From Craspedostauros australis (Eukaryota; Bacillariophyta; Bacillariophyceae; Mastogloiales; Achnanthaceae), in contig JAMXDE010000003.1 of NCBI GenBank assembly GCA_026770025.1, positions 248,001 to 312,000 of the forward strand: 64,000 nucleotides of DNA. Direction: 5' to 3'. Positions 8,128 to 64,000 of this stretch are shown here, piece by piece (the first letter of the stretch is position 1; the number at the start of each line of letters is the position of its first letter). The position numbers and the translations under genes are program-made. The notes below the pieces were generated by a model that worked only from the letters and a program-made list of their open reading frames with translations, ran no database searches and was not told the origin of the DNA.

Positions 8128-8132
8128 GACAC

Positions 8133-8266: not shown

Positions 8267-8298
8267 CCCCCCCCACGCTGGCGTAGCCAGCGGAAAAG

Positions 8299-12189: not shown

Positions 12190-12263
12190 CTCTCCATATG
12201 GAGCGCCTACAGGTGTCTCGCATGCACGGGAAACGTTTTTGAGCTGCTCACCAGGACACAGTT

Positions 12264-13934: not shown

Positions 13935-14068
13935 GATGTGCGAAGAATGGATACGGAAAAGAGAGCGAGGAAGTAGTGGAAAAAAGGAGCTGCGCGGATG
14001 TGGATTTCCAACAACAGCAGAGGGTACAGAGTAGCAGGATGAGCCTTAAAGCTTATTTCCTCATAACC

Positions 14069-14202
14069 TGTGATGATCGGGAGACGATACGTGATGTGTT
14101 GTGTGTGTGATGATGTGATTATTGTGATTATCTCCGATCTGGCAGAGGCTGTGACCATGGGTGTGTGCTGCTGCACCGTCTGTCTGCGACCGTATGCCAA
14201 CA
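14069..14202 (-). repeat. Upstream LTR of the Copia element
   Basis: 134 bp, identical to 8133-8266. It should carry the element's promoter. Its outer edge abuts the GACAC duplication at 14203-14207. Confidence 0.95.
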
Positions 14203-14207
14203 GACAC

Positions 14208-14451: not shown

Positions 14452-16554
14452 ATGAAGTACAAGTCAAAGGACTTCTCCAAATTCGCGTGGCCATCGCGGC
14501 TGACTGCGCCGATCATCAAGGTCGAGCTCGTCATCCAATGCAAACGCCTCCCCAAGAAGGACCTGCTCAGCCAGGCCGATGCCTTCTGCGTGCTGTGGAG
14601 GGTCCCCAATGGCTACACCCCGCCGATGATCAAGGGCATGCCATCCAACCTGCCCGGCCGCCAGGAGGATGAGATCAACCGGACGGAGACGCAGAACGGC
14701 GTCGCCAATCCGACCTTCAAGACCAAGTTCCCGCTCGACTTCACGTTCAACGAAGAGCAGACCTACATCCTGCGCGTGTACAGCGAAGATCTCAACATGA
14801 TCACGGACCTCAACGAGCACCACTACCTCGGAGGGTGCATCTTCACGCTGGGGCAGCTGCTGGGAGCCAAGGGACGCACGATCCTCAAGCGGTTGGGTCG
14901 GGATAAGTCCTTCCTCGTCATCACGGGAGATGGTGCGTACCATACCACCGCGTGTACTCGTTGTGGTACCACTGCTCGAGGCATAACAGTGCCCTCCACT
15001 CGTATTGGTAGAGTATCCTCCTCTGTTTCATTCCAACTCGCGCGCGTTGCCCATACTGACCACCGCCATCATTCTCCCTCTTCCTCGTTGCCCACCTTGC
15101 CCGTCTTGCCTTGCCTTGCTTGTCTTGCCCAACTTCTCCACTTTTCCTCCTTTCATGCCTCCGACACCGACACCAACCAACGGATGAATGCAGAGATCGT
15201 GGACACGAGAGAAGTGCTGGAATTCAGGTTCTCATGTCAGGACTTGATCAAGCAACAGAGTCTGCTCGACCAATCGAAAGTGCTGGACAAGTCCAATCCG
15301 TACTTCCAGGTGGAGAAGCTGCGCAAGGATGATCAGAGCTGGGAAGTGGTGTGGAAGTCGGAGGTCGTCAAGGATTCGCTGAGCCCCACATGGAAGGTGG
15401 CGCGGTTGCCGTTGCAGCTGCTGTGCAATGGGTTTCGCCGCGATCCCGTCAAGGTCACGATTTGGGATTACGAGAAGCATTCCACACAGCACGATCACAT
15501 GGGATACGTAGAGTCCACAGTCAACGAGCTCGTCGAAAAGGCCAAGGCCAAGATCGATGGCATCCCGGTCTTTCAGGTCATGCGCGAGCGGAGGAAGTGG
15601 TTCGGTGGTTCCAAACCCAAGCCGGTGGGCCTCATGAAGGTCCTCAAGGCCAACGTCCTCACCATCCCATCCATGCTTGAGCATCTCAGCGGCGGTTGCT
15701 CCCTCGACCTCATGATCGGCATCGATTGCAGCATCAACAACGGCACGGGCGTACAAGGCCTGCACCACAGCGCGAGCCATTGGCTGAATGACTACCAAGC
15801 CGGCATCCAGAAGTTCGGCTCCATCATGGAGAACTTCGCACGCGGGCGCCATTCCTCGATGTGGGGATTCGGAGGCAAGGTCGACGGCGAAGACCAGGAC
15901 GTCTTCATGATGGCCGATCGCCTCGTCGAAGCCCGCGAGATGCTCCAGACGTACGACAGCAGCATCGCGAAGAACAAGAAGTTCGCATTGGGCGAAACCG
16001 GCGTCCGGCTGAAGCCGCTGATCGAGGCCACCACGTTCCGTGCCATCCGATCGTGCAAGAACCGGCAGAGCTACACCATACTGTGCGTCTTCACCACCGG
16101 CAGCATCACGGACCTCCAGGAATCCATCGATCTCATTTGCGCCGCTGCGGAGGACGCCCCGCTGTCCATCGTTATCATCGGCGTGGGCAACCGCGACTTT
16201 TCCGCGATCGAACGCGCCTGCACCAACGAGAAGGGTCCCATGCGGGATTCTCGCAACGTCCCGATCGCTCGTGACATCGTCCACTTTGTGAGCTTCAAAC
16301 GATTTGCCGGCAACGCCAGCGAGGTGGTGGCGGACGGATTGAAGGACATACCCGAACAATTCGTGCAGTACTTCGTGACGAATGGGACGAAGCCCAATCC
16401 GGTGATCCCGCCGCCGGACTTGAATCGCAAGCCACGGTCGTCCAGCCCAAAGAAGACACCGAAGCAGCACAAGAAGGATAAGGCCAAGGCCGCGGCGCGC
16501 GAAGCCAAGAATAGGCGCCGGGCCTTGCTGCGAGATACATCGACGTATCTGTAG
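14452..16554 (+). CDS. Copine (two C2 domains plus VWA/copine domain)
   Basis: Two exons, 14452-14932 and 15194-16554, give 613 residues. Copines bind phospholipid membranes in a Ca2+-dependent way through tandem C2 domains and recruit partners through a VWA-like domain. C2A spans about residues 20-160 and C2B about 165-300 (DKSNPYFQVEKL; DSLSPTWK; VTIWDYEKHSTQHDHMGY). The copine domain follows: LMIGIDCSINNGTG is the MIDAS-like loop, with LKPLIEATTFRAI, SYTILCVFTTGSI and the ending DIPEQFVQYF. The C-terminal tail is Lys/Arg-rich, which is unusual and may aid membrane or nucleic-acid contact. Intron junctions are GATG|GTGCGT and ATGCAG|AGATC. The donor and acceptor join ITGD to EIVD, as expected inside the C2A-C2B link. 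Start chosen as the first Met of the open frame. Confidence 0.94.
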   Translation: MKYKSKDFSKFAWPSRLTAPIIKVELVIQCKRLPKKDLLSQADAFCVLWRVPNGYTPPMIKGMPSNLPGRQEDEINRTETQNGVANPTFKTKFPLDFTFNEEQTYILRVYSEDLNMITDLNEHHYLGGCIFTLGQLLGAKGRTILKRLGRDKSFLVITGDGAYHTTACTRCGTTARGITVPSTRIGRVSSSVSFQLARVAHTDHRHHSPSSSLPTLPVLPCLACLAQLLHFSSFHASDTDTNQRMNAEIVDTREVLEFRFSCQDLIKQQSLLDQSKVLDKSNPYFQVEKLRKDDQSWEVVWKSEVVKDSLSPTWKVARLPLQLLCNGFRRDPVKVTIWDYEKHSTQHDHMGYVESTVNELVEKAKAKIDGIPVFQVMRERRKWFGGSKPKPVGLMKVLKANVLTIPSMLEHLSGGCSLDLMIGIDCSINNGTGVQGLHHSASHWLNDYQAGIQKFGSIMENFARGRHSSMWGFGGKVDGEDQDVFMMADRLVEAREMLQTYDSSIAKNKKFALGETGVRLKPLIEATTFRAIRSCKNRQSYTILCVFTTGSITDLQESIDLICAAAEDAPLSIVIIGVGNRDFSAIERACTNEKGPMRDSRNVPIARDIVHFVSFKRFAGNASEVVADGLKDIPEQFVQYFVTNGTKPNPVIPPPDLNRKPRSSSPKKTPKQHKKDKAKAAAREAKNRRRALLRDTSTYL
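14933..15193 (+). other. Copine intron 1, 261 bp, length divisible by 3 and without stop
   Basis: It begins GTGCGTAC and ends AATGCAG after a pyrimidine-rich stretch near 15065-15165. It is open in the exon frame for 87 codons, so retention would not truncate the protein. Splicing is inferred from the seamless C2 reading across the junction. Confidence 0.85.
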
Positions 16555-20869: not shown

Positions 20870-21243
20870 TGTGCGAGACACGACTTTGTTGTGGTGGGGA
20901 CGTGTTTCCTTCCTTCCTTGTTGTTGGTCGCACGCATTTTCGTGCTGGATGGGGACAGAAGGATCCAAACCGCACGAACCAGAGGGGTGTGCGATCAAGA
21001 GAAGGAGGCAAACGCAGGCAACAGCACACACCACTCAACCCCACACTCGAGCACATCAAGAACAGACATCGAAGTGCCACTCATATTCATCACACAGTGC
21101 ATGCTACTCGTACTCATACTAATACAAGCTATTAAAGACACACCATCGATATCTCTGCCAAAGGTATAATTGCTCAGACTGCACACTTCCTCGACAGCCA
21201 ATCCAACATCAATCGTCCAGCAACCATCGACCATCCTGTCAAA
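20870..21243 (+). promoter_or_regulatory. Conserved 5' flank of ankyrin copy A
   Basis: About 370 bp upstream of the ATG are clearly alignable with 29700-30097 and 32260-32707. Shared blocks include CACACACCACTCAACCCCA, CATCACACAGTG, CACCATCGATATCTCTGCCA, GACAGCCAATCCAAC and CATCCT(G/C)TCAAAATGCCGAATGT across the start codon. This probably contains promoter and 5' UTR, and it marks the duplicated unit. Confidence 0.7.
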
Positions 21244-22332
21244 ATGCCGAATGTCACGAAGCAACAACTCCGTGATGCTTCCTTCAGAGGTGACTTGTGT
21301 GTGTTGAAGGAATGGAAGAAGCAGAACACTACACAGACGAAAGGAGTTGATGTCAACAAGGTTACAAACCAGTTTGGTTCCACTCCCCTTCATCTGGCAT
21401 GCTCCAACGGCCACCTGGAGTGTGTGAAATACCTCATCGAATCATGTGAGGCGAACATCAACTGCGAAGACAACTATGGTTGGACTCCCCTTCATTATGC
21501 ATGCTACAACGGCCACCTGGAGTGTGTGGAGTACCTCATCGAATCAGGTGGAGCGAACGTCAACTGCAAAAACAAACAAGGTTACACTCCCCTTCATGAG
21601 GCATGCCACAACGTCAAGCTGAAGTGTGTGAAGTACCTCATCGAATCATGTGGGGCGAATGCCAACTGCAAAAGCAACTATGGTTTCACTCCCCTTCATG
21701 TGGCATGCATGAACGGCAAGCTGGAGTGTGTGAAGTACCTCATCGAATCATGTGGGGCGAATGCCAACTGCAAAAACAACGATGGCCGCACTCCCCTTCA
21801 TCAGGCATGCATGTTCGACCACCTGGAGTGTGTGGAGTACCTCATCGAATCATGTGAGGCGAACATCAACTGCAAAGACAACGGTGGTTCCACTCCCCTT
21901 CATCAGGCTTGTGACAAGGGTCACCTGGAGTGTGTGGAGTACCTCATCGAATCATGTGGGGGGAACATCGACTGCCAAAACAACAATGGCCACACTCCCC
22001 TTCATCTCGCATGCGACAACGACGATCTGGAGTGTATCGAGTCCCTCATCAGAGGACTTTCGCCTTCAGTTCACCCACAACTGCAACAACTGCAGCAACG
22101 CTTACAACAAAACGAGCAAGCAAATGAACAGCCACAAGAACAGTTGGGACAGCAGTTGAAGCGAAAGAAGCAAGAGAATGAACGCAAACACAGCAGCCAC
22201 AAGAGGACCAAAATCAACATTGAAGAAGACAGCTCAGATCCTTCCAAACCGAGAACAGGCCAGACACCATCTTCGTATGTGGACAGGACGACCGACAACA
22301 ACCAACCAAGACAAACGCCGAAGCCCTTATGA
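21244..22332 (+). CDS. Ankyrin-repeat protein, copy A
   Basis: ORF of 362 codons. An N-terminal cap (MPNVTKQQLRDASFRGDL, then VLKEWKKQ) is followed by seven near-perfect ankyrin repeats of 34 residues with framework GxTPLHxACxxGHLEC-V(K/E)YLIESCGAN. Then comes a Gln-rich coiled coil (residues about 280-310) and a basic cluster, QLKRKKQENERKH plus SSHKRTK, that could be a bipartite nuclear signal. Ankyrin repeats bind proteins. The last 36 codons of this frame overlap a different frame that encodes a BTB domain, so the authentic product may be ankyrin-only or, if the frames are joined by an unseen event, ankyrin-BTB. Start is set by the ATG conserved in copies B and C. Confidence 0.85.
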   Translation: MPNVTKQQLRDASFRGDLCVLKEWKKQNTTQTKGVDVNKVTNQFGSTPLHLACSNGHLECVKYLIESCEANINCEDNYGWTPLHYACYNGHLECVEYLIESGGANVNCKNKQGYTPLHEACHNVKLKCVKYLIESCGANANCKSNYGFTPLHVACMNGKLECVKYLIESCGANANCKNNDGRTPLHQACMFDHLECVEYLIESCEANINCKDNGGSTPLHQACDKGHLECVEYLIESCGGNIDCQNNNGHTPLHLACDNDDLECIESLIRGLSPSVHPQLQQLQQRLQQNEQANEQPQEQLGQQLKRKKQENERKHSSHKRTKINIEEDSSDPSKPRTGQTPSSYVDRTTDNNQPRQTPKPL

Positions 22333-23096
22333 TCGCTGTCCCATCCATTGAGACACTGATCGACAAAGGAATCCAACATCACCACACGAATGATGGCACT
22401 GACGACGGTGCAGCCCCCATCCAAACAACCATCCCTCTTCCCAACCTTCAACCAAAACACGTCCGATACGTCCTCCAATGCATCTACACAGCCAAGATAT
22501 CCTTTCATGACAGCGTTCGTGACAACGCTGCTGCTCGCGTCGGCGCTCACACCAGCGCTCACACCAGCGCTCACCACGATACAGATGCCTCTCACCAGCC
22601 AACTCCCACCCTCAATGGACAGCATAATCTGCAACAGCTGATCCTGGTGGCCAACGAGATCGGCTTCTGGCTACTCAAGCTTGTTCTTGAAGCAGAGTTG
22701 GTCCACAAGCATCTCACCAAGGGCACCATGATAGGTGCATTGATATTCGCCGATCAACACAACTGTGTGGTGTTGAAGGATGCAGCAATGAGAATGGCAG
22801 CTGAAAGTGAGAAAGATATGTTCACTCATCTAGATTTAAGCAAACTGATTCTACAACCCCAACTGATGACGGAGATCCAGGTGTTTTGCAGTGGGAGAGC
22901 CGAGAGTGATGGTAATGATGACGAGTGCACTCGTATGTCCATGGTGGAGTTGCACAAGGTCATAGATGAGGACGAGGGTGCAGCACAAGCGGATTCATAC
23001 ATGGATCGGGCGACATTGGTGGACTTCGTCTGCTCTTTGACTACCAAATCATCCAAAATGATTGAGACGGACGGTGCTGCTGAAGAAGAGGAGTGA
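22224..23096 (+). CDS. BTB/POZ domain reading frame downstream of ankyrin copy A
   Basis: The frame is open from just after a TGA at 22221. Its first in-frame ATG is 22329, overlapping the ankyrin stop as ATGA. Upstream of that ATG the same frame encodes the expected BTB beginning (TIFVCGQDDRQ), so the domain starts before the ATG. BTB features: PKHVRYVLQCIYTAKISF, LQQLILVANEIGFWLLKLVL, and the helical end NCVVLKDAAMRMAAESEKDM. A His/Thr tandem insert (AHTSAHTSAHHDTDAS) lies between the two halves of the domain. BTB domains dimerise and many recruit Cullin-3 ligases. The acidic C-terminus ends in AAEEEE. Relation to the ankyrin frame is a -1 shift. No canonical slippery heptamer or GT-AG intron that repairs it was found. 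Confidence 0.7.
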   Translation, partial: RRQLRSFQTENRPDTIFVCGQDDRQQPTKTNAEALMIAVPSIETLIDKGIQHHHTNDGTDDGAAPIQTTIPLPNLQPKHVRYVLQCIYTAKISFHDSVRDNAAARVGAHTSAHTSAHHDTDASHQPTPTLNGQHNLQQLILVANEIGFWLLKLVLEAELVHKHLTKGTMIGALIFADQHNCVVLKDAAMRMAAESEKDMFTHLDLSKLILQPQLMTEIQVFCSGRAESDGNDDECTRMSMVELHKVIDEDEGAAQADSYMDRATLVDFVCSLTTKSSKMIETDGAAEEEE

Positions 23097-23792
23097 AGCG
23101 CCAGACCATGCCATGCCACACCATAACAGCAGTCTTGGAGAAGTGAACGCATGACAGAATTGAGTTGATGGATAAGACTAGTCATCAGAATAGTCATTAG
23201 GACAGTAACTGTGTGAAAGGAGCTGGAGCAACTTGAGATCCAATCATTCAATGGTGCGTCCGGCATGCCTTGACCGTCGCCTTTGGTGATCCACACAACA
23301 TGCTGCCCCATGCACTCCCATGTCGTTCGCAGCACGGTCTGGCTAATCCGCGAGATACGCATGGTCTTCTGTGCATGAATTGCAGAGGATCCCGGTTGGC
23401 GCACGGCACGTTGGCGTGCAGCATCACTGGTCAATATGACATGAAGAAGATGGTTCAGCCACTGTTGTTATTGTCGTGGTCGTCATTGCCGATCATATAG
23501 TATGGTTTCCGCGTTCGTTCGTTCGTTGGTTTCATTGGTGTGGAAGGAGCTGCGTGGGAAACGACGGCGGACCCCGCGGGCATCATGCATGGCTTGTTGG
23601 AATCGAATCCAACTTGATGAAGTGGAGCGTACTGCGACTGTCAGCTTGTTGTTGTTGGTGGTGCTGCAGTTCGTGCATGATGTCACGCAGGGCACAAGCG
23701 TATGCCAGCGGTTGCATGGTTTTCGATAGGTACGGCCGACAAAGATGACGAGCAATGGGAGAAGTTGCCGATGTCATTGCACACGATATCTC
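23097..23792. other. Spacer after copy A
   Basis: 3' flank of copy A. A minus-strand open stretch at 23583-23777 with LRDIMHELQHHQQQQ could be an exon of the uncertain gene to its right, but junctions are not clear. Confidence 0.25.
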
Positions 23793-23996
23793 TCATCTGT
23801 GGATGTGACGAGACAGTGCCTCTGTCTCATCGTTTGCGGTTTGTGGCTGCGACGCACCGCTTCGAGCATCGGCATGAACAGGCGTGCCTGGTTGTGGTGC
23901 GTGTTGTTGCACCTGAGGAATATCTCCGAGCTGATGGCTCTGCAGGTCTCGAAAGAAGTCGCTGCGGCCGATCTCCCGGATGCACCCGTCCAGCAT
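23793..23996 (-). CDS. Possible exon or small protein, minus strand
   Basis: The frame is open from after a TAA near 24034, giving SATEIQHMLDGCIREIGRSD followed by FFRDLQSHQLGD and a Gln/Pro/His-rich tail to the stop at 23793. The first 40 residues look like a genuine amphipathic helical segment, the rest does not. It could be one exon of a minus-strand gene (with 23583-23777) or a short protein starting at MLDG. No family was recognised. Confidence 0.2.
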   Translation of the reverse strand: MLDGCIREIGRSDFFRDLQSHQLGDIPQVQQHAPQPGTPVHADARSGASQPQTANDETEALSRHIHR

Positions 23997-24449
23997 GTGC
24001 TGAATCTCCGTTGCCGACAGCGCATCGGACGTTTATGTGCGTGGATCCTGCTGCTGATGACTTGAATCCAGACCGCACCATGGGCCATGACATGTCTTGC
24101 CATTACAGTTGGTTCTGTTGTTGGCGCTGCCATTGCCCATGTCCCAAGCTCGTCTCTAATCCGGAGCAGTTGGTTTGATATCTTCCTTTCTGATGTCGCT
24201 GAGTGATGCGACAAGTTTGAGATCGCTGTTCATCACTGCTCGTCATTCACCATCGGCATGATCATCATCATCAGCATCATCATCGGCATCATCGTCTCTT
24301 GCCATGGCCGCCTTTGTTGATTCTGGTTGGTGTGCCATATTTGTGCAGCCGCCGCTTGCTTGATTACTTCATTGCTTCGTTGCTTGACAGACAATGTCTC
24401 AGTGTTGGGTGATACCTCCATCAATGCAAACATGGTCATACCATTTCAT

Positions 24450-24484
24450 CTCTCTCTCACTCTCTCTCTCTCTCTCTCTCTCTT
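24450..24484. repeat. TC dinucleotide microsatellite
   Basis: Near-perfect TC run of about 35 bp, interrupted once by CAC. Confidence 0.9.
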
Positions 24485-24730
24485 TGTGTTGAAGTCGTTT
24501 GATGGATCACGACGCAAAATCGAAGATTCGTTGTTTTGGGTGGTGTCAAGAATTTTTGGCGCGTTTGGTGGTATTCGTCTGTCTGCCGTCCGTGCTTCAT
24601 TCAACCAGTACCACACACAAACACCCACAACCAACATCTCGCTGTTGTCTTCATGCAACGCAACTCTGTTCGATGATTGTGAGGGTGATGGCGACCACTC
24701 CAACGATGCCGCATCCCTTCACATTGATAC

Positions 24731-24793
24731 CACAAACACAAACACAAACACCAACACAAACACCAACACCAACACAAACACAAACACAAACAA
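24731..24793. repeat. ACAAAC/ACCAAC microsatellite
   Basis: About 63 bp of CACAAA and CACCAA hexamers, reading as Asn-Thr repeats in one plus frame. Confidence 0.9.
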
Positions 24794-24997
24794 TCAGACA
24801 AGATGATGGCGCATCGACATCCAAGAGGCATTGTGGGAAGGCTCGCCAGTTGCTCCGCATCTTTACCCACTCGTCGTACGACTATGAGTATCGAACCTTC
24901 CATGAGTACGATCTACTCTGGGAGTTGCCACAGCAGGGCGTCCAGCCTGATACTCTGTTCGAACCTTCGTGCGGTCATGAGGTCATGACGATCGAAG

Positions 24998-27900
24998 TTG
25001 CTGGAAGAGGACGGGGTCAGATGGATAGCGGAGAAACAAACGGAGACCAAGCAACCGCAACCGCAACCGCAGCAGGCCGATACAAAATCGAAGGCGAGCA
25101 AGCCCACTGGCGTTGCCAAAGAAGCCAGAGCAGCCGCAAAATCAGGTGGTCGTGCGAGTGTCAGCACAGATACACCGAGCAGCGCCAATAGAAGTGCAGC
25201 CAAAGATGCGAAAGCTTCGGCTGTGAAACGATCACATGCGAAGAGTCTGGACATGCTCGACATGCAAGCTCACGAGATGTCATTCAGCTCCCTTGATCCC
25301 AGCAAGTTCAACACCAACAAATCGATACCGGCCATAAACACCCCAGATGGACTCAGCTTCGCCACAGTCCCAGCACTCGGCGCGACCCATGAACGGATCA
25401 ACCAAGACAAGACGAAGGTTGCCCAGAGTTGGAGACGTAGGCCAAGGCCACAACCGAATTCCAACGGAACGACCAGCAGCGACAAATCGAGGAGCAAGAG
25501 TTTGGAATCCTTGAAATTCTTGAAGGACGGACACAACATGCCAGGCACAACATACACATCAGACACACCAGGCGCGATGAGTGCAGCCAGCATCCCGGAT
25601 CTATCTCGAGTTGCAAGATCGAAGAAGTCACGCAGCAAGAGCCTGGAGTCACTGTCCAATCTGCCAAGTCTCCACGACGACGATGATGGCAGCGTCGATG
25701 TTGCGACAAGTGCTGCTGCAACGAACGGTGGGAGAAGCTCTGTGGTCCCTGTCACGCCTGGAGGTCAGAGCGCGGCATCTACACCAGCCCCCTTCCCCTT
25801 CAGCCACACACATGAATAGAGACAACAATCTTCATTGTTGAACAAGCGCAGGTCGACGTCAGAAAGCATCCTCAAGGCCAAACAATCATCATGACGTGAA
25901 GTGTCGTCAACAAATCCCGGCAAATCGATGCAACGACCATCTCTCGAATCTCGACCATCGCAATTGGCTGATCTTGCCTTGACCAAAGCATCCGCAAAGG
26001 CACCATCATCGTCGCCATCATTAACACAGTCCAAATCCAAACTCAATCTTCAACGATTCGAACGCGAGCGCGAACAAGGAGGTGTCTCGACCGCACCCCA
26101 AGCCTCATCCAGTCCTGGAGCCTTGAGTTTGGGAATCGAATTGAAATCGAGCAAGAAGGACCAGGTGGCTCCTTCTCGCAACAGATCCGCACGCAGTTCG
26201 TTGCGCCCAAGCGAAGACTCAAAGCAACGACGTTCACGCGGACGAAGCACGGGTGGTCTGTGTGATGAGAAGCGATCAAGGAAAGGATCTCCAAGGTGCT
26301 TGGCAATGGGCCCCGACATCACCACTCCAGCAAAACAAGAGACGTGTCATCACCATCGCCATTGATATTACCATCGATATCACCATCGCCACGGCATTGG
26401 CGGAGAAGCGCACAGCACACCAGTGGCAAGCTGCACTCGACATCGTCAAGATCAAAGAGTGTGGAGCATTCGACATCATTGCGTCATCGTCGTGACGGAG
26501 AATTTCACACTTCCTCTTCTGGAAGAAGCCGCCGCTCGCCATCGGCGCGGAGTCGCCGAAAGCCGTCCGATCGCTGTTGTAGAAGAACTGCGCAACTATC
26601 GATGGACTCATCACCATCATCGCAGAGACAACGAACATCTGGCAGTTCGGATGATATGAACGCAGCCTCGCGTTCACGCGAAACCAATTCAAATGCGCAC
26701 TCCGCTGGGACTGGTTTGCAACGGCCCAAGGGCTCACCTTCCCGAAAGCATGCCCGAGGAAGTTCGCGAAGACCAAATCAACGTGGCCGTAGCCAATCGA
26801 CACCACGCGACGAAGATCAGCGAAGGAAGTCCTCCGATGAACGATCACCATCGGCGCGACAACGAAGCAGATCAAGAGGATATCGAAATTACAGCGTCGA
26901 ACGGCACAACAATGAGAGAGATGAAGATGGACGGCATTGCAAACAACAGCATGGCAACAAACGTTCGTCATCACGCAGGCCCTTCAATCAAATCATCGTG
27001 GACGAAGCAGATCGTCGACACGCGATGCTGTCTACCATGAGAAGATATCTGGCACAAAGCCACTGCAACTCACACCAAAGAAAGCGGTCAGGAGCAAGAG
27101 CGCGTCTCAGTACTGCGATCGCTCGATGAATGGTACCAAACTCCCACCCGTGATGCATCACGACACGATGGGATGGAATGAGATGTGTGGGCCGCTCCGT
27201 ACTCGTATCATACTCCTGACGGTGTGGTAGATCCACATCCCTGTATGTAATACACCTACGAATAGACTGTAATGCTCTATAATCTGTATGGTTGGAACAG
27301 TACCGCATGCACTTTATCTGCTCGTGCAATAGAACGCTGTGATGAAGGCACTGGATGTTCCAAGAGATGGAAGGGCTGGGTACTGCTCCCATGCTGCCTC
27401 CGCCTTGTCTACGACTAGTCTGGTCTGCTCTCTGCAGTACAAACGCACACAGGGATGTTGCCAATGTCATTCACGAGCAGATTGGACGTCCGTGGTTCCA
27501 TCCATACTCCGCCATCAGCATCGTTGTTAATTCCTTGCGCAGACAAAGGATGCATGGCAGCACCATTTTCACAAGCCGTGCGGTCGTCGCCGTGCCGCCG
27601 GATTCACACACAGAGCACTCTACTCGAAGTCACACTGCCAAGCAGATTGAAAGCGACAGTGCCGATGCCAGCCGATCCAAGTTTGTGGAAGAGGCGATCT
27701 ACGAAGAACACATGGCGAACAAGGCAGAGGGAAATGGTGAGAAGCCACGAGGAGCATGGTTGCTACGCGATTCCATCGACCGTCCCGTATCGCCCTATTG
27801 TCCTCATCGCTCCAGGAGTTGCACTCCCACCATTGTGCCAAAACTGCAGTCGAGACCCTTGCCAAGTCCCAGGAGGACTGATCACTCGCCGTTGGAGCAA

Positions 27901-28008
27901 CAAATGCCAGGGTCACCATCCATTCCAATCTTCGAAGCGATCAGTGCCAGCGTGGCGGAAGGACAAGAATTGACGAGCCAGCGCAGTCCAAGCATCCAGA
28001 GAGCTTGA
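24998..28008 (+). pseudogene. Disrupted Ser/Arg/Lys-rich locus with SRSKSLESL motifs
   Basis: Several long plus-strand readings follow one another: 24998-25819, 25901-26365 (same frame), 26296-27129 and 27355-28008 (another frame). The first is opened by no ATG (a TGA lies 12 bp upstream). It carries the motif SRSKSLESL twice and a related HAKSLDML. The next has QSKSKLNLQRF and the third SSRSKSVEH, then RS-dipeptide-rich sequence such as RSRSRGYRNYSVE. Two stops separate the first two in one frame. The shared motif across them implies one original gene. It is either a multi-exon RS-like protein whose introns I cannot place or, as I lean, a decaying copy. RS-rich proteins act in splicing or phosphorylation-controlled assembly, but no RRM or kinase domain is visible. 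Confidence 0.35.
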
Positions 28009-29699
28009 CGAGCAAGAGAAGAAATCAACCAACCAACGAACCAACGAACCAACCAGCAACCCCATGCAGAGTGCAAGTACTGTATTGCGGATCATGGTTG
28101 ACACAGAGATCCATTTTGGTACAAGAAGCACACGGCCAGCGATCCATGGCCCATGGATACCGTACACCCACATGTCCTCCTTCGTGGTGCTCCCAACTTC
28201 ATTCGTGAGGTGGATGTTCCTGTCGATCGCCTTGATGGAGCATCGATGCTCTGGAAGTCACGAGCCAAGACGGCGGCGCTCATGCCTCAAGATAGAATGC
28301 GCATGGTATTGTATGTTGGTGGTCCGTGCGGCAGGAACAGTGGAGGCGGCACGGTATCACCTCATCCCAATACGCAATGGGGTGTTGGTTGGATGTTGAG
28401 GACTCTTATTGCCTGTGCGGATGGTGATGGTTGCAATGCGGTGGGATGGCAACCAGCCAAATCCAAATGGGATGGGTCGCGGCCAACAAAGGCAACCAAC
28501 AAACGCAGTCACATCAGTGGCTTCATCGTTGTTCGAGGCATTGGTTCGAACCTCAAGTTGGTGCTTGTGATGGTAGGCGGACGAGCGTCGGTGGTCTTGC
28601 AGATGCCACGATGACGCAAGCAAGCGTGGCCCGTGGTGATGGCAGCTCCCTCTGTCTCTCTGTCTCCAGAGACTTTCACGTTGTTTGCTTCAAATTGATG
28701 TGGTGTTGATTGTGACTGAAGTCGAGTTGTTGGAGGCAGACTCGAGCCGAAAGACCGCTCAGGCCAACAGAAACACTGAACGACCATTTCGAACCACTTG
28801 GGTTTGACCATCAACGATCTCTCGCATTCGTTGTGCTTCGACAAACGTCCACGCAAACATTGATCTTCTTTGGTGGTTTTACTCATAGTCGAATCAGTCG
28901 AAGATTCGGGCTAATCCATAGTCACATAGCTTTTGTCTGCGTTGGGTGGTAGGTTTACTAGCACCTCCAAGCTTGCCTTGGATCATCCGGCTCGATCCCT
29001 CCTGGCCAAGTTCGTCTCTGGTCTCTGCCTCGGCTGTTTGCGTTGGTGTTGACTGATTCGATCATGGTTGGAGGGAGAGCGCTGGAATCCCCAAAGGGCG
29101 GGAAGGTGGGTTAAAAATTTTGAAGCGTTGGAGGAAGCGTCTTTCGAAGCGAAGGTGTGACAATTCTGTTGTCTTTTCCAAATTGTGGGTGCTTCGACCG
29201 TCGCTGTTCCGTCGCTTCTCTGCTTTGTTGTTTACTCTCTCTTTCTTCTTTCTTTCTGTTTTGGACTCCTCGATCCTTCGCGTTTGGCCTCCTTTGTTTC
29301 TCATTTGCTCGGAGCGGGTCTTAATCTTGCTTCACTATCCGATTGCATCTCTTCTGGCGGGTTTGTAATGCTACTCAAGATAGTGCATTCCGTGTTCCCG
29401 AATTTTTGCTTGTGTTTCGGTTTTGTCGTCGCAGTCGTCCATTTTGTGAGCTCCGCATTGCCATCAGATGGCCGTTGTCGCACATGGTTTGAATTGTCAT
29501 TACTTAAGCGATCAGCCCATGTGTGGCCGTTATAACCGTTGTGTCGGGTCTCTGTTGGGGAGTCGTGCGTACGACTTGCATTCCCGCTGCGTTCCCGTCT
29601 TCTTCCTGCGGGTGGTGCCCTGGAGTCGTATGGGTCGTCTGTATCAACCAGTCAATTATGTCCAGAAGTGACCCGGTTTTCGAAGACCCACAAAACAGA
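28009..29699. other. Spacer between the RS-rich locus and ankyrin copy B
   Basis: AACCAACGAACC tandem at 28026-28060. Open stretches at 28153-28614 and 29185-29535 have no family features. The final 200 bp are T-rich and lead into the duplicated 5' flank. Confidence 0.3.
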
Positions 29700-30097
29700 A
29701 CTCTGTAATTCTTGGGCCGCGTTTCCTTCGTTCCTTGTTGTCTGTGTGCATTTCCGTGATGGATGAGGACAGAAGGATCCAAACCACACAAACCAGAGAG
29801 GGGTGCGATCAAGAGAAGGAGGCAAACACGATGATGCTTGTGCGCAAAGAGAGAAAGAGAGGACATGTGCGAACAAGACAACACACACCACTCAACCCCA
29901 TACTCGAGCACATCAACAACAGACATCGAATTGCCACTCATATTCATCACACAGTGTATGGTACTCATACTAATACAAGCTATTGAAGACACACCATCGA
30001 TATCTCTGCCATAGGTGTAATAGCTCAGACTGCACACTTCCGTGACAGCCAATCCAACGCTAATCGTCCAACATCAACCATCGACCATCCTCTCAAA
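29700..30097 (+). promoter_or_regulatory. Conserved 5' flank of ankyrin copy B
   Basis: Aligns by eye with 20870-21243 and 32260-32707, including CACCATCGATATCTCTGCCA and GACAGCCAATCCAAC. Relative to A it has an extra block AAAGAGAGAAAGAGAGGACAT that copy C also has, so B and C flanks are closer to each other here. Confidence 0.7.
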
Positions 30098-31036
30098 ATG
30101 CCGAATGTTACGTACGAACGACTCCGTTATGCTGTCATAACAGGTGACTTGTCGGTGTTGAAGGAATGGAAGAAGCAGATCCAGACACAGTATTATGGAG
30201 TTGATGTCAACAAGGTCACAGACACTGGTGGGCAGACTCCCCTTCATCTGGCATGCATGTATGGCCAGCTGGAGTGTATGAAGTACCTCATCCAATCATG
30301 TGAAGCAAACATCAACAGCAAAGACAGGGATGGCTCCACTCCCCTTCATCAGGCATGCTACAGCGGCCGCCTGGAGTGTGTGAAGTACCTTGTTGAATCA
30401 TGTGAAGCAAACATCAACTTGAAAACCGACAATGGTTGGACTCTCCTTCATCGGGCATGCTCCAACGGCAAGCTGAAGTGTGTGAAGTACCTCATCGAAT
30501 CATGTGAAGCGAACATCAACTGCAGAACCAACTATGGTTACACTCCCCTTCAGGTGGCATGCGAGAACGGCCACCTGGAGTGTGTGAAATACCTCATTGA
30601 ATCATGTGAAGCGAACATCAACAGCAAAAACTGGAAGGGTTTCACCCTCCTTCATCAGGCATGCTGCGAAGGCCACCTGGAGTGTGTGAAGTACCTCATC
30701 AAATCATGTGGGGCGAATATCAACAGCAAAGACAACGATGGTTTCACTCCCCTTCATCGGGCATGCAAGAACGGCCACCTGGAGTGTGTGAAGTACCTCA
30801 TCGAATCATGTGGGGCGAATATCAATGGCAAAGACAACAATGGTTTCACTCCCCTTCATTACGCATGCTGCTGGGGCCGGCTGGAGTGTATCAAGTACCT
30901 CATCGAATCATGTGGGGCGAATATCGACTGCAAAACCAACGATGGTTGGACTCCCCTTCATTGGGCACGCTGCAACGGCAACCTGGAGTGTGCGAAGTAC
31001 CTCATCGAATCATGTGGGGCCGATACCGACATCTGA
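30098..31036 (+). CDS. Ankyrin-repeat protein, copy B (no BTB)
   Basis: ORF of 312 codons. The conserved cap MPNVTYERLRYAVITGDL, then VLKEWKKQ, precedes eight 34-residue ankyrin repeats. The reading stops a few residues into the ninth linker (SCGADTDI). No coiled coil or BTB follows, and sequence resemblance to copies A and C ends soon after the stop. It is therefore either a free-standing ankyrin protein or a 3'-truncated member. Repeat codons are strongly conserved with A and C, including silent positions, while residues after TPLH and after AC vary. The ATG context TCAAAATGCCGAATGT is the same in all copies. Confidence 0.82.
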   Translation: MPNVTYERLRYAVITGDLSVLKEWKKQIQTQYYGVDVNKVTDTGGQTPLHLACMYGQLECMKYLIQSCEANINSKDRDGSTPLHQACYSGRLECVKYLVESCEANINLKTDNGWTLLHRACSNGKLKCVKYLIESCEANINCRTNYGYTPLQVACENGHLECVKYLIESCEANINSKNWKGFTLLHQACCEGHLECVKYLIKSCGANINSKDNDGFTPLHRACKNGHLECVKYLIESCGANINGKDNNGFTPLHYACCWGRLECIKYLIESCGANIDCKTNDGWTPLHWARCNGNLECAKYLIESCGADTDI

Positions 31037-32259
31037 AACAACGACAACGAAACACCCCCTCGAGTAGATCGATGGTGCATCTCATAATTGGCAACGTAGG
31101 ATCCTATTCAGGCGTCGATAGTGCAATGGTATCCAACGGTGTTGATGGTGAAGTTGTGGCAGGTTCGGTGTCATGTTGATGCCTCGTGTTGTTGGTGATT
31201 TGGCTCTGTTGTGTGCTTTCTCCCTTGTGTGTGTGTTGTGTCAAGCAGCACAGCGTTGGTGGAGGCATCTCTTCACGTCCACGTGCACAGCAACAGAAAT
31301 ACTTGCGAATACCACACAATCTAAGATTCTAAAATGTAATGTAATGGAGCACAGTGACCTATCCTATGGTACACAAATATAATATGATTTAATGCTAAGC
31401 CGAGTTTGTTAGTACAAGTCCTGCGTAGCCTGCTTTGCTCCCCTTGGACAAGGGACGCCATGGTCATATGCTGAACTGTTGGCATGGTGCGGAAAGAAAC
31501 TGGTGGCGGTAGTGTTGTTTTCCTTGTTGTTTCTTGTGTTGTGATTCGAGTGCTTGCAGGTTCATTGACACCGAAGTAAGAAGTTGAGAGGAGAGCAGAT
31601 GAACAACAGCCAGAAGCCAACAATGGCTGTTGGCGATGACAAGCAGAGAGGAGGTCCAAACAAACAGGCAGGGAATAGACCTGAAGCGAGGACAAGGCTG
31701 TACTATTGATTGGGCATTTGAAGGGAAGGCAGTGTGTGCTGATTGGGACTTGGACGATTCTCAACGTCACGGACCACGAACGACGGCAGAACCGAGAACA
31801 AGGCAGTGTCAAAGTCAAGCTGGGGGTCAAGATCTGGATTACCCATCAACCCACAACTCTTGATTTCAGCAACTGATCCACGGTCCAGACGAAGCAGCAG
31901 CCTCATCATGCCTACCACCACTGTGCAATCCTCAACATTTCTTCGAAACCAACCGCCTCACCCACACAAAATGTGAGTCTGTCGATGATGGGCACGACTG
32001 GAAATCAAGCTTTAGCACGACTGGCGATTGCGAATCCAAGTTGGCCCTCCACGTCCGCATGCTCAACGTTTCTAGTTGTAGACTAATGCGAAAACTGTAT
32101 TCGTTGTAACTACAGGTTCCAGGAGCTTGTAACTTCACCCAGATACTCTCTACACCATAATAGGATGATCTAAATGCTTGAGTTAAAGATCGGCACAAAC
32201 TTACGTGCGAACCCTGGATGGGGTCGTATGCCGGTCATTGGAATGATCCCACACTGTCG
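31037..32259. other. Spacer between copies B and C
   Basis: No BTB remnant was recognised in the first 500 bp after copy B. No other gene was supported. It ends where the copy C 5' flank begins. Confidence 0.35.
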
Positions 32260-32707
32260 TGTTCGGAGCGTGTTTCCTTCCTTCTTCCTTTCTTGTTGTC
32301 CATTCTCGTTTTCATGATGGATGGGAACAGAAGGATTTGAACCAGAACCAGAGGGGTGCGATCAAGGGAAGGAGGCACACACAGACAAGCCACACGAACC
32401 AAAGGGGCGCGATCAAGAGGAGGCAAACATAAAGATACTGGTGCACAAAGAGAGAAAGGGAAGACCATGCGAACAAACCAACCACACACACCACTCAACA
32501 CCATGCTCGAGCACATCAACTGCAGGCGCCGAATTGCCAAGCATTCTCATCACACAGTGAATGGCACCCATAATAATTCAAGCCGTTGCATACACCACCA
32601 TCGATACCTCTGCCATAGATAGCTCCAACTGCACACTTCCTTGACAGCCAATCCAACGTCAACCGTCCAACGTCAATCGTCCAGCAACCATCCACCATCC
32701 TCTCAAA
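32260..32707 (+). promoter_or_regulatory. Conserved 5' flank of ankyrin copy C
   Basis: Homologous to the flanks of A and B. It contains an internal near-duplication of the GAACCAGAGGGGTGCGATCAAG block (about 32345-32375 and 32396-32418) and a doubled CCAACGTCAA(C/T)CGTCCA block just before the gene. Confidence 0.7.
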
Positions 32708-33967
32708 ATGCCGAATGTTTCCAACCAGCAACTCTTTGCTGCTACCTGTGCAGGTCACTTGTGGGTGTTGAAGGAATGGAAGAAGCAGAACACTACGCAG
32801 AATGAAGTATTTGATGTCAACTGCAAAGACAGCGATGGTTGGACTCTCCTTCATCGGGCATGCTACAACGGCCACCTGGAGTGCGTGAAGTACCTCATCG
32901 AATCATGCAAGGCCAACGCCAACCGCAAAAACAAAGGTTCCACTCCCCTCCATCGGGCATGCTGCGAAGGCCACCTGGAGTGCGTGAAGTACCTCATCGA
33001 ATCATGCGGGGCCGACGCCAACCGCAAAAACATCAATGGTTCCACTCCCCTCCATTGGGCATGCTGCGAAGGCCACCTGGAGTGTGTGAAGTACCTCATC
33101 GAATCATGCAAGGCCGACGCCAACTGCCAAAACAACAAAGGTTCCACTCCCCTTCATCGGGCATGCTGCGAAGGCCACCTGGAGTGTGTGAAGTACCTCA
33201 TCGAATCATGCAAGGCTGACGCCAACTGCCAAAACAACAATGGTTCCACTCCCCTCCATTGGGCATGCTACGAAGGTCACCTGGAGTGTGTGAAGTACCT
33301 CATCGAATCATACGGGGCGGACACCAACTGGAGCAACAACAATGGTGACACTCCCCTCCATGAGGCATGCTGCAAAGGTCACCTGGAGTGTGTGAAGTAC
33401 CTCATCGAGTCATGCAAGGTTGACGCCAACTGCCAAAACAACAATGGTTTCACTCCCCTCCATGATGCATGCTACGAAGGTCACCTGGAGTGTGTGAAGT
33501 ACCTCATCAATTCATGTGGGGCGATCATCAACTGCCAAAACAACGGTGGTTCCACTCCCCTTCATCAGGCATGTGACAAGGGTCACCTGGAGTGTGTGAA
33601 GTACCTCATCGAATCAGGTGCGGCCAACATCAACTGCCAAAGTACCCATGGTTCCACTCCCCTTCATAAGGCATGCTCCAACGGCCACCTGGAGTGTGTC
33701 GAGTACCTCGTTGCATCAGCCAATGCCAACATCAACATCCAAAACAACAACAACAAAACGCCCCTCCATATGATCGACGCAACACTTCAATTCAAGATGA
33801 TAAGCCATCTCAATCATCTGAGTCACTGCAACTCACAGCAGCAGCAGCAGTTGAATCAGAAGGAGCAGGAGAACGACCAACTGAAGCAGCAGTTGGAACA
33901 GCAGAAGGAAGAAATGCAGCGCATGCTCTCGACAAGTCAACGGGAGGACGAACAACTGAAACTTTAG
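32708..33967 (+). CDS. Ankyrin-repeat protein, copy C
   Basis: ORF of 419 codons: cap (MPNVSNQQLFAATCAGHL), about ten 34-residue ankyrin repeats, the most regular array in the family, then a Gln/Glu-rich coiled coil (QQQQQLNQKEQENDQLKQQL and following). It ends at a TAG at 33965. Directly after that TAG the same frame goes on through KQHLKISINQDRRAAL into a BTB domain. Read-through would therefore yield an ankyrin-coiled coil-BTB protein, as the layout of copy A predicts. Whether TAG is a plain mutation or is tolerated cannot be told here. Position 7 of each repeat after TPLH is Arg, Trp, Glu, Asp, Gln or Lys in turn. Confidence 0.85.
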   Translation: MPNVSNQQLFAATCAGHLWVLKEWKKQNTTQNEVFDVNCKDSDGWTLLHRACYNGHLECVKYLIESCKANANRKNKGSTPLHRACCEGHLECVKYLIESCGADANRKNINGSTPLHWACCEGHLECVKYLIESCKADANCQNNKGSTPLHRACCEGHLECVKYLIESCKADANCQNNNGSTPLHWACYEGHLECVKYLIESYGADTNWSNNNGDTPLHEACCKGHLECVKYLIESCKVDANCQNNNGFTPLHDACYEGHLECVKYLINSCGAIINCQNNGGSTPLHQACDKGHLECVKYLIESGAANINCQSTHGSTPLHKACSNGHLECVEYLVASANANINIQNNNNKTPLHMIDATLQFKMISHLNHLSHCNSQQQQQLNQKEQENDQLKQQLEQQKEEMQRMLSTSQREDEQLKL

Positions 33968-35160
33968 TTGAAACAACATCTCAAGATCAGCATCAACCAA
34001 GATCGTCGTGCCGCTCTTCGTGCTGAGGCCATCACAGACGTTTCCTTCCTGTACGGACAAGGGGACAGCCAACACGCAATCAAGGCAAACTCCGGAGTCC
34101 TCGTGGTCACTGTCCCATCCATCGAGATATTGAGCAGCTCTGGAATCCAACATCAATGCGCTCACGATGGCGCTCACGATGGCGCTCACGATAGAACTGA
34201 ACCCATCCAAACAACCATCCCTCTTCCCAACTTTCAACCACAACACGTCCGATACGTCCTCCAATGCATCTACACATGTGAGATATCCTTTGACAACAAC
34301 ACTCATGGCGACACTGACGATGATGACACAAATCAGCCAACTCCCACCCTCAATTGACAGGCGTGGGATCATATGGTATCCGAGCCTCGGACGCGGGATG
34401 CGATAGTATCATAGACTCAGAAAGCACTGAAGCCTAGCACTACCGCCCCGGACAACATTCCATTTCAAACCGGACCCTGGAGGAAAGGCATGATAGGTTC
34501 AAACTGTCCTGCCTCATCAATAACATCGCCAACATGGATGTACGATCCATACAAACCAAAAAAGGAGAAACTTCAGAGAGCAGAACAAACGCAAAGAAAC
34601 TCAATGAAGCAACATCCATACAAAAACAACTCACAATTTAGTTTCATAGTTACATTGCATTCCTAGGTTACTAGTTGTCGCCAATGAGCCAGGCAGAGTC
34701 CTTGTCCAAAACAGGCAAATCCACTGCTGGGAAACAACAACATGACGATCTGCAACAACTGATCCTTGTGGCCAACGAGTTCGGCTTCTGGCGACTCAAA
34801 CTTGTTCTTGAAGCGGAGTTGGCCCGCAAGCATCTCACCAAGAGCACCGTGATAGATGCATTGATATTCGCTGATCATCACAACTGCTTGGTGTTGAAGG
34901 ATGCAGCAATGAGAATGGCAGCTGAAAATGAGAAAGATATGTTAACCCATCCAGATTTCAGCAAGCTGATTCTGCAACCCCAACTGATGAGAGACATTCA
35001 TGTCCTCCGCGGTGGGGGAGCGGAGAGCGATGGTATTGATGATGAGTACAGTTGTATGTCCATGATGGAGCTGTACAAGGTTGTAGATGAGGATGAGGGT
35101 GCAGCACAAGTGGATTCATACATGGATCGAGCGACATTGGTGGACTTCGTCGCTCTCTGA
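33968..35160 (+). pseudogene. BTB domain of copy C, split by an insertion
   Basis: The N-terminal half (33968-34357) encodes TDVSFLYGQGDSQHAIKA to QCIYTCEISFDN and ends at a TGA where copies A and D have GGA. A 383-bp foreign segment (34361-34743) follows. The C-terminal half (34744-35160) resumes with DDLQQLILVANEFGFWRLKL and runs to DRATLVDFVAL. The two halves differ in frame by exactly what a 383-bp insertion would cause, so the rest is collinear with copies A and D. With the upstream TAG, the internal TGA and the insertion, this copy cannot make a normal BTB domain. The C-terminal half could in principle be translated alone from an ATG in the insert, but I consider it dead. Confidence 0.75.
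34361..34743. mobile_element. 383-bp insertion of uncertain origin within copy C
   Basis: The segment is absent from copies A and D at the matching site (…AATGGACAG/GACGATCTG…). Near its left end TGGTATCCGAGCC resembles the tRNA-iMet primer-binding site used by many Copia elements, which hints at a retroelement remnant. No clear target duplication or LTR was found. Origin unproven. Confidence 0.5.
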
Positions 35161-43673: not shown

Positions 43674-44416
43674 GGTTGTTGCAATACCAATTGCGGTTTT
43701 GTTAGTTTTGTTGGTGGTGTCGGTTGTTGTTGGTTGGTCAGGTGTGATGACGAACATTGGTGTCGCATTGATCATGAATTGGGCACATTCGACGATGTGC
43801 GCGATTGTGCATGTGTCCCATCATGCGTGTCACATTTTGTGATTCATGGTTCGTCGTTTCGGAAGCAGAAATGAGCCAATTTGACGAGGGGTTGATGATG
43901 ACGACAATAATGACGGTTGAGGATTACGGCGGTGCATGATTGGACGACGCAGAGTGCATTGTATTGTATTGCATCGTATTGTATGCATGACATTGCGTTT
44001 GTGTTGCATCGGATCGTGTGAATAGACGATGCGAATGTATGCGACGACCGTTGGATTGGATTTGCAATGCGGGTCGACGGAAGATCCGATATGGTGAATG
44101 TATTTCGGCACATGGATGAGTTGAGATGAAGGTGTACGGAGGCAGAAGTGAATCATGGACAGAGCAGCGGATACATTGAATTGCGTGATGGCGTGGCCGT
44201 TGGTATGTGCGAGTGACGAGGGATTGGGCAAGAGAGTTGAGGTGAGAAAGATAGATATCATTTTTGCGATGTTGCGTAACTGTGGCTTCTCGGCTTCGCT
44301 TCGGCAATGACGATCGTCATGATGGCCACGCTGCTCTGATCCATGGCTTGATGCATCTGTTGATCCATGCATGAACGAATGAACGAATGAACGGATGACG
44401 ACCATTGTTGCATGCG
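43674..44416. other. Upstream region of the pyrophosphatase gene
   Basis: Contains leader sequence and a run of TGTATTG/TGCAT words at 43955-43990. ATGAACGA tandem at 44369-44393. No separate gene was recognised. Confidence 0.35.
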
Positions 44417-62700: not shown

Positions 62701-62821
62701 CCGCGAATCTTCCCGAGGTATAATAGATGGCATCGAGGATTTGCCGCGACGCGATGCTTCACTCTGATTAGCTCGTGTCGGTTAGTGTCCAATGTAACAG
62801 GTACATGTGAGTCTGAAGGCT
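59726..62821. other. Long spacer with no convincing gene
   Basis: AG microsatellite at 61557-61575. Minus-strand hydrophobic stretches occur at about 60400-60480 (MVAIIVVVVGTCLYELLIL), 61010-61060 (SGSIIAIGIAMAIV) and 61960-62050 (LFMIVAMAVF, then MMMVLGTLILFVV). They might be exons of a membrane protein, but I could not link them with convincing junctions. Confidence 0.3.
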
Positions 62822-64000
62822 CTCCTGATAAAACAATATAGAGAATATCTAATTGATATCTAATTGCTCAGACTGTGTCATCTGCGTTACTCCACTGCAT
62901 GATGAGTTCGCTCTCCAAGCGCCGTTGCCGGAGTGAACTGCTCCACTCCTCTTCCTCCGCAGTGCCGTCCACGTCAATTACTTCGGATCAATTGGTTCTC
63001 ATAGAGTTGGTTCTCAGAGAGCGACGAGGTCCACCAATGTCGCCCGATCCAGGTATGAATCCGCTTGTGTTGTGCCCTCATCCTCATATAACCTTGTGCA
63101 ACTCCACCATGGACATACGACTGTGCTCATCATCAATACCATCACTCTCCGCTCCCCCATTGCAAAACATCTGGATCTCCGTCATCAGTTGGGGTTGTAG
63201 AATCAGTTTGCTTAAATCTAGATGAGTGAACATATCTTTCTCACTTTCAGCTGCCATTCTCATTGCTGCATCCTTCAACACCACACAGTTGTGTTGATCA
63301 GCGAATATCAACGCACCTATCATGGTGTCCTTAGTGAGATGCTTGCGGACCAACTCTGCTTCAAGAACAAGCTTGAGTCGCCAGAAGCCGATCTCGTTGG
63401 CCACCAGGATGAGCTGTTGCAGATCGTCCTGTCCATTGAGGGTGGGAGTTGGCTGGTGAGAGGCATCTGTATCGTGGTGAGCGCTGGTGTGAGCGCTGGT
63501 GTGAGCGCCGACGCGAGCAGCAGCGTTGTCACGAACGCTGTCATGAAAGGATATCTTGGCTGTGTAGATGCATTGGAGGACGTATCGGACGTGTTTTGGT
63601 TGAAGGTTGGGAAGAGGGATGGTTGTTTGGATGGGGGCTGCACCGTCGTCAGTGCCATCATTCGTGTGGTGATGTTGGATTCCTTTGTCGATCAGTGTCT
63701 CAATGGATGGGACAGCGATCATGAGGGCTTCGGTGTTTGTCTTGATTGGTTGTTGTCGGTTGTCCTGTCCACATACGAAGATGGTGTCTGGCCTGTTCTC
63801 GGTTTGGAAGGATCTGAGCTGTCTTCTTCAATGTTGATTTTGGTCCTCTTGTGACTGCTGTGTTTGTGTTCATTCTCTTGCTTCTTTCGCTTCAACTGCT
63901 GTCCCAACTGTTCTTGTGGCTGTTCATTCTCTTGCTCGTTTTGTTGTAAGCGTTGCTGCAGTTGTTGCAGTTGTGGGTGGACTGAAGGCGAAAGTCCTCT
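62822..64000 (-). pseudogene. Inverted, mosaic copy D of the ankyrin-BTB family, cut by the window edge
   Basis: Reading the minus strand from 64000: the coiled-coil part of the ankyrin frame (QLKRKKQENEHKH), the same frame change as in copy A, then a nearly identical BTB domain (63084-63722 from the internal ATG, with LQQLILVANEIGFWRLKLVL). A single-base loss near 63082 turns VIDEDE into VI-stop, removing the acidic C-terminus. From about 63045 to 62822 the sequence stops matching copy A and matches the 3' flank of copy C (CGTCGCTCTCTGAGAACCAA; CAATTAGATATTCTCTATxTTG). The copy is therefore a recombinant of A-like and C-like parts. Its ankyrin part lies beyond the window. Confidence 0.8.

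Follow-up and report, generated by a model that had tools for sequence, protein, structure and literature searches.

Has selection changed the ankyrin repeats of a local gene family of the diatom Craspedostauros australis at those residues that would touch a ligand, and does a BTB domain turn the products into adaptors that mark their ligands for degradation? The question is raised by a gene cluster in a 64,000-nucleotide stretch of contig JAMXDE010000003.1 (assembly GCA_026770025.1, positions 248,001 to 312,000 of the forward strand), hereafter called the window, within which all coordinates are given. An earlier reading of the letters alone (the sequence-only reading) had described three gene copies, A, B and C, as a diversifying set of substrate receptors, each combining ankyrin repeats of fixed framework and variable binding face with a BTB domain of the Cullin-3 adaptor type. 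The variability of the binding face is genuine and has good support for the positions as a class, although individual positions mostly lose significance after correction; it agrees with diversifying selection acting on that face while the scaffold was held. The term "ankyrin-BTB gene", by comparison, likely describes the ancestral layout and not an open reading frame (ORF) of any copy in the window.

The ankyrin ORFs of A (21244..22332, 362 aa), B (30098..31036, 312 aa) and C (32708..33967, 419 aa), all on the plus strand, begin with an N-terminal cap (MPNV...VLKEWKKQ in A), and 102-bp tandem units follow at 21375-22050 (A), 30236-31016 (B) and 32818-33750 (C). With (G or N)-x-T-(P or L)-L-(H or Q) as the anchor of a unit, and counting from 21376, 30230 and 32837, respectively, A has 7 TPLH-type units, B has 8 and C has 10, the final one being degenerate or cut short in each gene. 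These counts bear out the 7, 8 and about 10 repeats reported earlier. Pfam models Ank, Ank_2 and Ank_4 match the three proteins with E-values from 4e-77 to 2e-120 (2.9e-84 for Ank_2 on A, 1.9e-99 for Ank_4 on B), which identifies the units as ankyrin repeats. Downstream of the units there is a Q-rich linker in A and a predicted long helix in C. The AlphaFold2 model of C, built with A and B as the alignment, consists of an ankyrin solenoid followed by this helix (residues 358-418) with a predicted local distance difference test score (pLDDT) of 88.4, and its top solved match in Foldseek is the ankyrin repeats of Espin (E 1.8e-24). In the cap (21244-21375, 30098-30229 and 32708-32836), the nonsynonymous rate exceeds the synonymous one in the A-B (1.55) and B-C (1.74) comparisons and not in A-C (0.82), all from small counts.

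In ankyrin numbering TPLH occupies positions 6-9, and the 34th residue of the units, an insertion, was named 26a. Variation was analysed in 22 of the 25 units: A7, B8 and C10 were omitted as degenerate or short, and C1 was aligned with a one-codon gap. The framework had been called almost unchanged, and indeed 10 of the 34 positions are invariant in all 22 units, 3 of these 10 being encoded by a single codon throughout. Residue entropy is highest at positions 10, 13, 3, 5 and 14, in this order; variation is focused around TPLH and AC, as claimed, and an even spread over the codons, which would have spoken against the whole idea, is not observed.

Libraries of designed ankyrin repeat proteins (DARPins) are randomised at positions 2, 3, 5, 13, 14 and 33, and ankyrins at large are described as varying most at positions 2, 3, 5, 13, 14, 17, 32 and 33 (PMC1261162). 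Since the six-position ligand set was taken from this source, it is independent of the present data. The equation of the variable sites with the ligand-facing and DARPin positions, made from the sequence alone, holds for this set, which ranks 560 among all 1,344,904 possible six-position sets by the proportion of nonsynonymous differences (pN). It does not hold for position 10, which is outside both published lists and, unlike the literature-derived six, had been picked from the data by the sequence-only reading. In the model of C, helix 1 covers positions 7-14 in the mapped units and thus includes positions 10, 13 and 14; judging from helix geometry, position 10 should stand one turn before 13 and 14 and share one face with them.

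The comparison of surface with framework that had been proposed as a check came out in favour of a selected face. By the Nei-Gojobori method, pN and the proportion of synonymous differences (pS) over the 22 units are 0.453 and 0.160 at the six ligand positions, 0.643 and 0.125 at position 10, and 0.120 and 0.221 at the remaining 27 positions. A codon model with three classes of positions gives nonsynonymous to synonymous rate ratios (omega) of 3.11 for the six, 9.09 for position 10 and 0.67 for the remainder, and rejects omega = 1 for the six (twice the log-likelihood difference, 2dlnL, 28.8; p 8e-8). With a star tree, and hence independently of the weakly supported tree of units, the values are 4.67, 8.47 and 0.73, respectively. 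Bootstrapping over units puts the excess of pN at the seven face positions over pS at the remaining ones at 0.19-0.33. The six-position pN also exceeds both pS at the six and pS elsewhere within each of A, B and C taken separately, as well as in the 26 of 231 unit pairs that are at least 85% identical.

A noncoding yardstick is available next to the genes. The upstream flank of A (20897..21243, plus strand) has its counterparts at 29714-30097 in B and, in two pieces, at 32255-32707 in C, with blastn identities of 74.7-78.2%; the three share approximately 350-450 bp, with p-distances of 0.121 to 0.183 in a trimmed alignment. As a check against codon bias, collinear units of A and B were compared at codon bases 1 and 2, where differences occupy 36 of 84 sites in the seven face codons and 33 of 324 in the others, the noncoding upstream distance for this pair being 0.121. 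Face codons have therefore diverged about 3.5-fold more than the noncoding flank, while synonymous differences are no more frequent at the six positions than elsewhere (pS 0.160 vs 0.221), so the ligand face has outpaced the likely neutral rate. Codon-targeted hypermutation was considered as a source of this pattern and judged unlikely. At position 10, the fraction of differing pairs is 0.645 for codon bases 1 and 2 but 0.255 for base 3, a pattern that a mutator blind to codons would not give; base 3 of the six positions is raised (0.350 vs 0.188), yet their pS is not.

Several results weigh against this interpretation. Taken singly, positions 3, 5, 10, 13 and 32 test positive at uncorrected p < 0.05 and positions 2, 14 and 33 do not, but Bonferroni correction over 34 tests leaves position 10 as the only positive (p 0.0003), and at position 14 alpha exceeds beta. 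Third bases of the collinear A/B pairs differ more in the face codons (15 of 42 vs 26 of 162). The other 27 positions evolve hardly below the noncoding rate (0.102 vs 0.121 at bases 1 and 2). The analysis includes just 22 units with a poorly supported tree, and recombination among units can inflate site tests. Furthermore, rapid divergence of repeats within proteins is described as general: an acceleration of horizontal divergence among repeats is reported to be universal, dN/dS being below 1 in most cases and positive selection contributing in some (PMC5120217). This opens the way to a plainer account, ordinary repeat turnover, in which freshly duplicated ankyrin repeats diverge quickly under relaxed selection and form no recognition repertoire. 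It would also draw on the near-noncoding pace of the non-face codons and on the natural tendency of ankyrin repeats to vary most at ligand positions (PMC1261162). Relaxation alone, however, caps omega at 1, whereas the estimates are 3.1 and 9.1 with omega = 1 rejected for the six, and face codons exceed the divergence of the flank. We consider turnover by itself rather unlikely, though it deserves the most attention among the rivals.

If the ankyrin face was diversified, what was it attached to? The earlier description of a local gene family stands, including repeat number that varies between members, but its size of three does not. A six-frame search with both halves of A and the BTB start of C raises the family to at least four copies: the additional one, D (62809..64000, minus strand), is 97% identical to A over 914 nt and 91% to the tail of C over 282 nt. 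Its 5' part runs past the end of the window, so that only the linker and the BTB/BACK-like part lie inside it and the ankyrin part outside.

In none of the four copies are ankyrin repeats and BTB part found in one intact ORF (D being incomplete at its 5' side), which is the first point against the receptor half of the story. In A, the ankyrin frame closes at a TGA, and the BTB/BACK-like region (22224..23096, plus strand) overlaps its end in a different frame that is open from 22224. D has the same frame change in the linker; it also has 2 nt fewer than A and C near 63087, and its BTB frame ends at 63087. C keeps a single frame that is interrupted by a TAG (33965-33967) between the ankyrin part and the N-terminal half of the BTB part (33968..34357, plus strand), the latter ending at a TGA (34355-34357). 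About 380 nt of extra DNA follow (34362..34744, plus strand, boundaries set by eye), for which A and D have no counterpart; there is no second copy of this segment in the window, and a scan of it detected no inverted repeat longer than 8 nt. The C-terminal half with the BACK-like region is found in an ORF at 34675..35160 (plus strand), with homology from about 34744. B has a stop within its eighth unit and no BTB part downstream. In A (22329-22332) and at the matching place in D, the stop of the ankyrin frame (TGA) and an ATG of the BTB frame overlap as ATGA; this is probably a coincidence, because BTB homology begins upstream of that ATG.

Full-length ankyrin-BTB proteins could still be made if splicing or recoding, invisible in the DNA, joined the frames. 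The BTB frames are open for 290 (A) and 247 (D) codons, both copies share the frame change and the ATGA overlap at its end, and splicing probably occurs: the copine gene at 14452-16551 (C2 domain; Pfam Copine 1.7e-29) contains an in-frame stretch, from GTGCGT near 14934 to CAG near 15192, that resembles an unspliced intron. On paper, 51 GT-AG pairs in the stretches scanned would bridge the frames (25 in A, 19 at the first break of C and 7 at the second), one of them at the second break of C having a GTGAG donor. Against this, no GTNNGT donor is present among the 25 pairs of A, whereas the copine candidate has GTGCGT; two introns would be required in C, one for each break, and in B a BTB part to be joined is lacking. 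Introns were thus judged unlikely to underlie the breaks, and we see hidden full-length products as improbable in general.

Another way to save the intact proteins would be to blame the assembly or the sequencing. Long-read errors typically give single-step frame changes. The identical change in A and D, the approximately 380 nt of extra DNA at the break in C, and the clean long ORFs (841, 700 and 570 aa) of the genes adjoining the cluster all argue to the contrary, and error is a very unlikely explanation.

The A/D argument needs a qualification, which comes from the kinship of the copies. Compared in bins of 80 nt, A and D are 0.89-1.00 identical as far as 23010, beyond which the values drop to 0.78 and 0.51. 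It is 0.97 over 22627-22890. Over 22891-23030 the values are 0.89 for A-D, 0.89 for C-D and 0.88 for A-C, and over 23031-23110 A is the odd one out (A-D 0.68, A-C 0.69, C-D 0.91). A and D thus share a recent, nearly identical tract that stops abruptly near 22890, for which gene conversion or unequal exchange, in either direction, is the simplest account. The shared frame change lies inside this tract and therefore may not represent two independent observations. A mosaic of A-like and C-like sequence in D was considered and dropped, as A, C and D are about equidistant (0.88-0.89) past 22890. Among the repeat units, identity is 96% for the pair C3/C4 and 89% for A6/C8, which would suggest local duplication alongside an old kinship by position.

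The BTB domain proposed from the sequence alone is only partly confirmed: a C-terminal BTB/BACK-like part appears to have been ancestral and under past purifying selection, but no copy keeps it in an intact frame with the repeats and B lacks it. Sequence comparison supports such constraint for the time since A and C separated, with omega of 0.36 in the C-terminal half (Fisher p 0.0004) and 0.66 in the N-terminal half. The identity of the domain is harder to establish, and here the remaining objections belong. Pfam BTB exceeds its cut-off in the N-terminal half of C only, by 0.2 bit (20.7 vs 20.5), with A (15.4 bits) and D (17.3) below it. BACK_BPM_SPOP scores 19.1-21.1 bits on the copies (19.4 on A and 21.1 on the C-terminal half of C) against a cut-off of 27.4, and BACK scores 18.0 on C and 12.0 on A against 20.9. 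An evidently unrelated viral profile, CoV_RPol_N, comes close to BACK on the C-terminal half of C (16.2 bits, below its own cut-off). A sequence search of solved structures returned no BTB chain, and the AlphaFold2 model of the A BTB frame is unusable (pLDDT 33.5). The substitutions that separate the BTB frames of A and D are spread nearly evenly over codon positions (7, 8 and 9), and no significant constraint is seen after the two diverged (Fisher p 0.08, simulation p 0.077), although the simulation reaches p 0.043 when the absence of stops is also required.

These last numbers invite the view that the cluster is dead, every copy being a neutrally drifting pseudogene and the selection signal a memory. 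The even A/D substitutions and the BTB part interrupted or lacking in all four copies would agree with it. The ankyrin frames, on the other hand, remain open for 362, 312 and 419 codons, the 27 other positions have pN below pS (0.120 vs 0.221), and the upstream flanks have stayed similar in A, B and C; a wholly dead cluster seems to us unlikely. Most likely the copies in the window today are ankyrin-only genes or young pseudogenes.

We regard it as fairly probable that A, B, C and D are recent paralogues of a birth-and-death family of ankyrin binding receptors with a diversified face and a putative BTB adaptor, the link to which is now lost or broken. The ancestral protein would have consisted of an N-terminal cap, 7 to 10 ankyrin repeats, a coiled coil, a BTB domain and a BACK-like domain. 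Its ligand-touching face would have been diversified under selection on a preserved scaffold, while repeat number changed between copies and the A-D tract arose through gene conversion or unequal exchange. The proteins were presumably intracellular: no hydrophobic N-terminal stretch is visible in the ankyrin proteins, no dedicated predictor having been applied. The family may have served as a set of binding receptors whose BTB/BACK part brought the captured proteins to a complex, the most plausible candidate being a ubiquitin ligase of the Cullin-3 type, and selection may have favoured new specificities, e.g., against parasites or changing partners. The present state, with ankyrin arrays open and the BTB link broken or lost in all four copies, would then be a stage of birth and death. 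Accordingly, one part of the earlier claim of diversifying substrate receptors, namely diversification of the ligand face, is retained, and its other part is not, as no intact ankyrin-BTB frame is found and Pfam recognises BTB above its cut-off in the N-terminal half of C only. The receptor repertoire is plausible but depends on a BTB part that all copies of the window either lack or have interrupted.

A bolder variant would make the broken copies a silent reservoir of ankyrin cassettes, with open arrays whose diversity is maintained by recurrent exchange, gene-converted into one or a few expressed ankyrin-BTB genes elsewhere, i.e., a recombining germline set of degradation receptors. It fits the conversion-like A-D tract, the BTB part interrupted or absent throughout and the varying repeat number; in the window no donor-to-recipient event, no direction of transfer and no intact expressed copy is seen. 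We would hold it for a long shot.

Relatives of the cluster were sought in contig collections by protein-based searches. The A ankyrin ORF had no pattern match in the viral collection and the A BTB frame had one, which was not confirmed; the C ankyrin ORF had 13 in the collection of prokaryote genome contigs, none of them confirmed. Neither the viral nor the prokaryote collection had any match to a 29-base framework string.

Other features of the window include an apparently recent copia-type retrotransposon on the minus strand (8133-14202). It is bounded by identical 134-nt long terminal repeats with TG...CA ends (8133-8266 and 14069-14202) and a 5-bp target duplication (8128-8132 and 14203-14207). 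Its pol ORF (8302-12189) matches RVT_2 (8e-16), and a further ORF (12267-13934) matches no Pfam family. An H+-pyrophosphatase is encoded at 41178-43775 on the minus strand by two ORFs that jointly cover most of the profile (Pfam 2e-132 and 4e-98), the split reflecting an intron or a frame change. A complex tandem array of GTGCAT/GCAGGGAAAAT-based units, 6 to 83 bp long, lies at 47388-47965.

Among known systems, the mode of evolution appears, from sequence comparison, to be that of the diversifying ankyrin arrays of fungal NLRs, with conserved repeats and positive selection on the concave face as a class. In the fungal NACHT/ANK proteins, repeats are described as highly conserved and variable in number, as here (7, 8 and 10 between paralogues of one assembly), with few positively selected positions, all on the concave face bar one, and concerted evolution is suggested (PMC4986451). 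The partner domain differs: here it is BTB/BACK-like and broken and no NOD domain is seen, Pfam giving no NACHT or NB-ARC match on the ankyrin or BTB frames.

A second parallel is offered by nematode MATH-BTB and F-box adaptors, a birth-and-death family in which strong positive selection is reported in the substrate-binding and not in the Cullin-binding domains (PMC4334554). The binding part in the diatom is an ankyrin array instead of MATH, its BTB part is not intact, and Cullin binding is putative. By contrast, in the four largest expanded families of Parachlamydiaceae, F-box and BTB proteins included, positive selection is reported as unsupported (PMC4209131). The combination of ankyrin and BTB in one (here ancestral) protein is known from BTB-ankyrin proteins such as Btb1-3 of S. 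pombe, which join a ligase with the Cul3 homologue Pcu3 (PMC1257465). As far as the group is described there it has no single layout, whereas in our family 7-10 near-identical repeats precede a very divergent BTB part.

A further comparison is with Plasmodiophora brassicae, a protist with expanded ankyrin proteins, polymorphic surface residues and a BTB association, where 17 ankyrin proteins with a SKP1/BTB/POZ domain appear in a secretome study (PMC12503489); the diatom proteins have no visible signal-like N-terminus. Among the limited set of titles and abstract openings surveyed, which included papers on plant NPR1-like BTB-ankyrin proteins, we found no report of diversifying selection on protist ankyrin-BTB genes. 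A designed ankyrin unit has 33 residues, one fewer than the 34 of the diatom units. The two share a fixed framework with variable positions 2, 3, 5, 13, 14 and 33, but position 10, which has the highest residue entropy here, is not randomised in DARPins (PMC1261162).

If expressed members of the family exist, natural selection would have diversified an ankyrin array at nearly the same positions as the engineers have chosen, possibly together with a degradation adaptor, and the family would constitute a natural set of binding solutions in which position 10 is an additional variable site. If true, this would link repeat evolution of the fungal NLR type with adaptor diversification of the nematode type. 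Should the copies prove dead, they would still document that binding specificity was once under selection.

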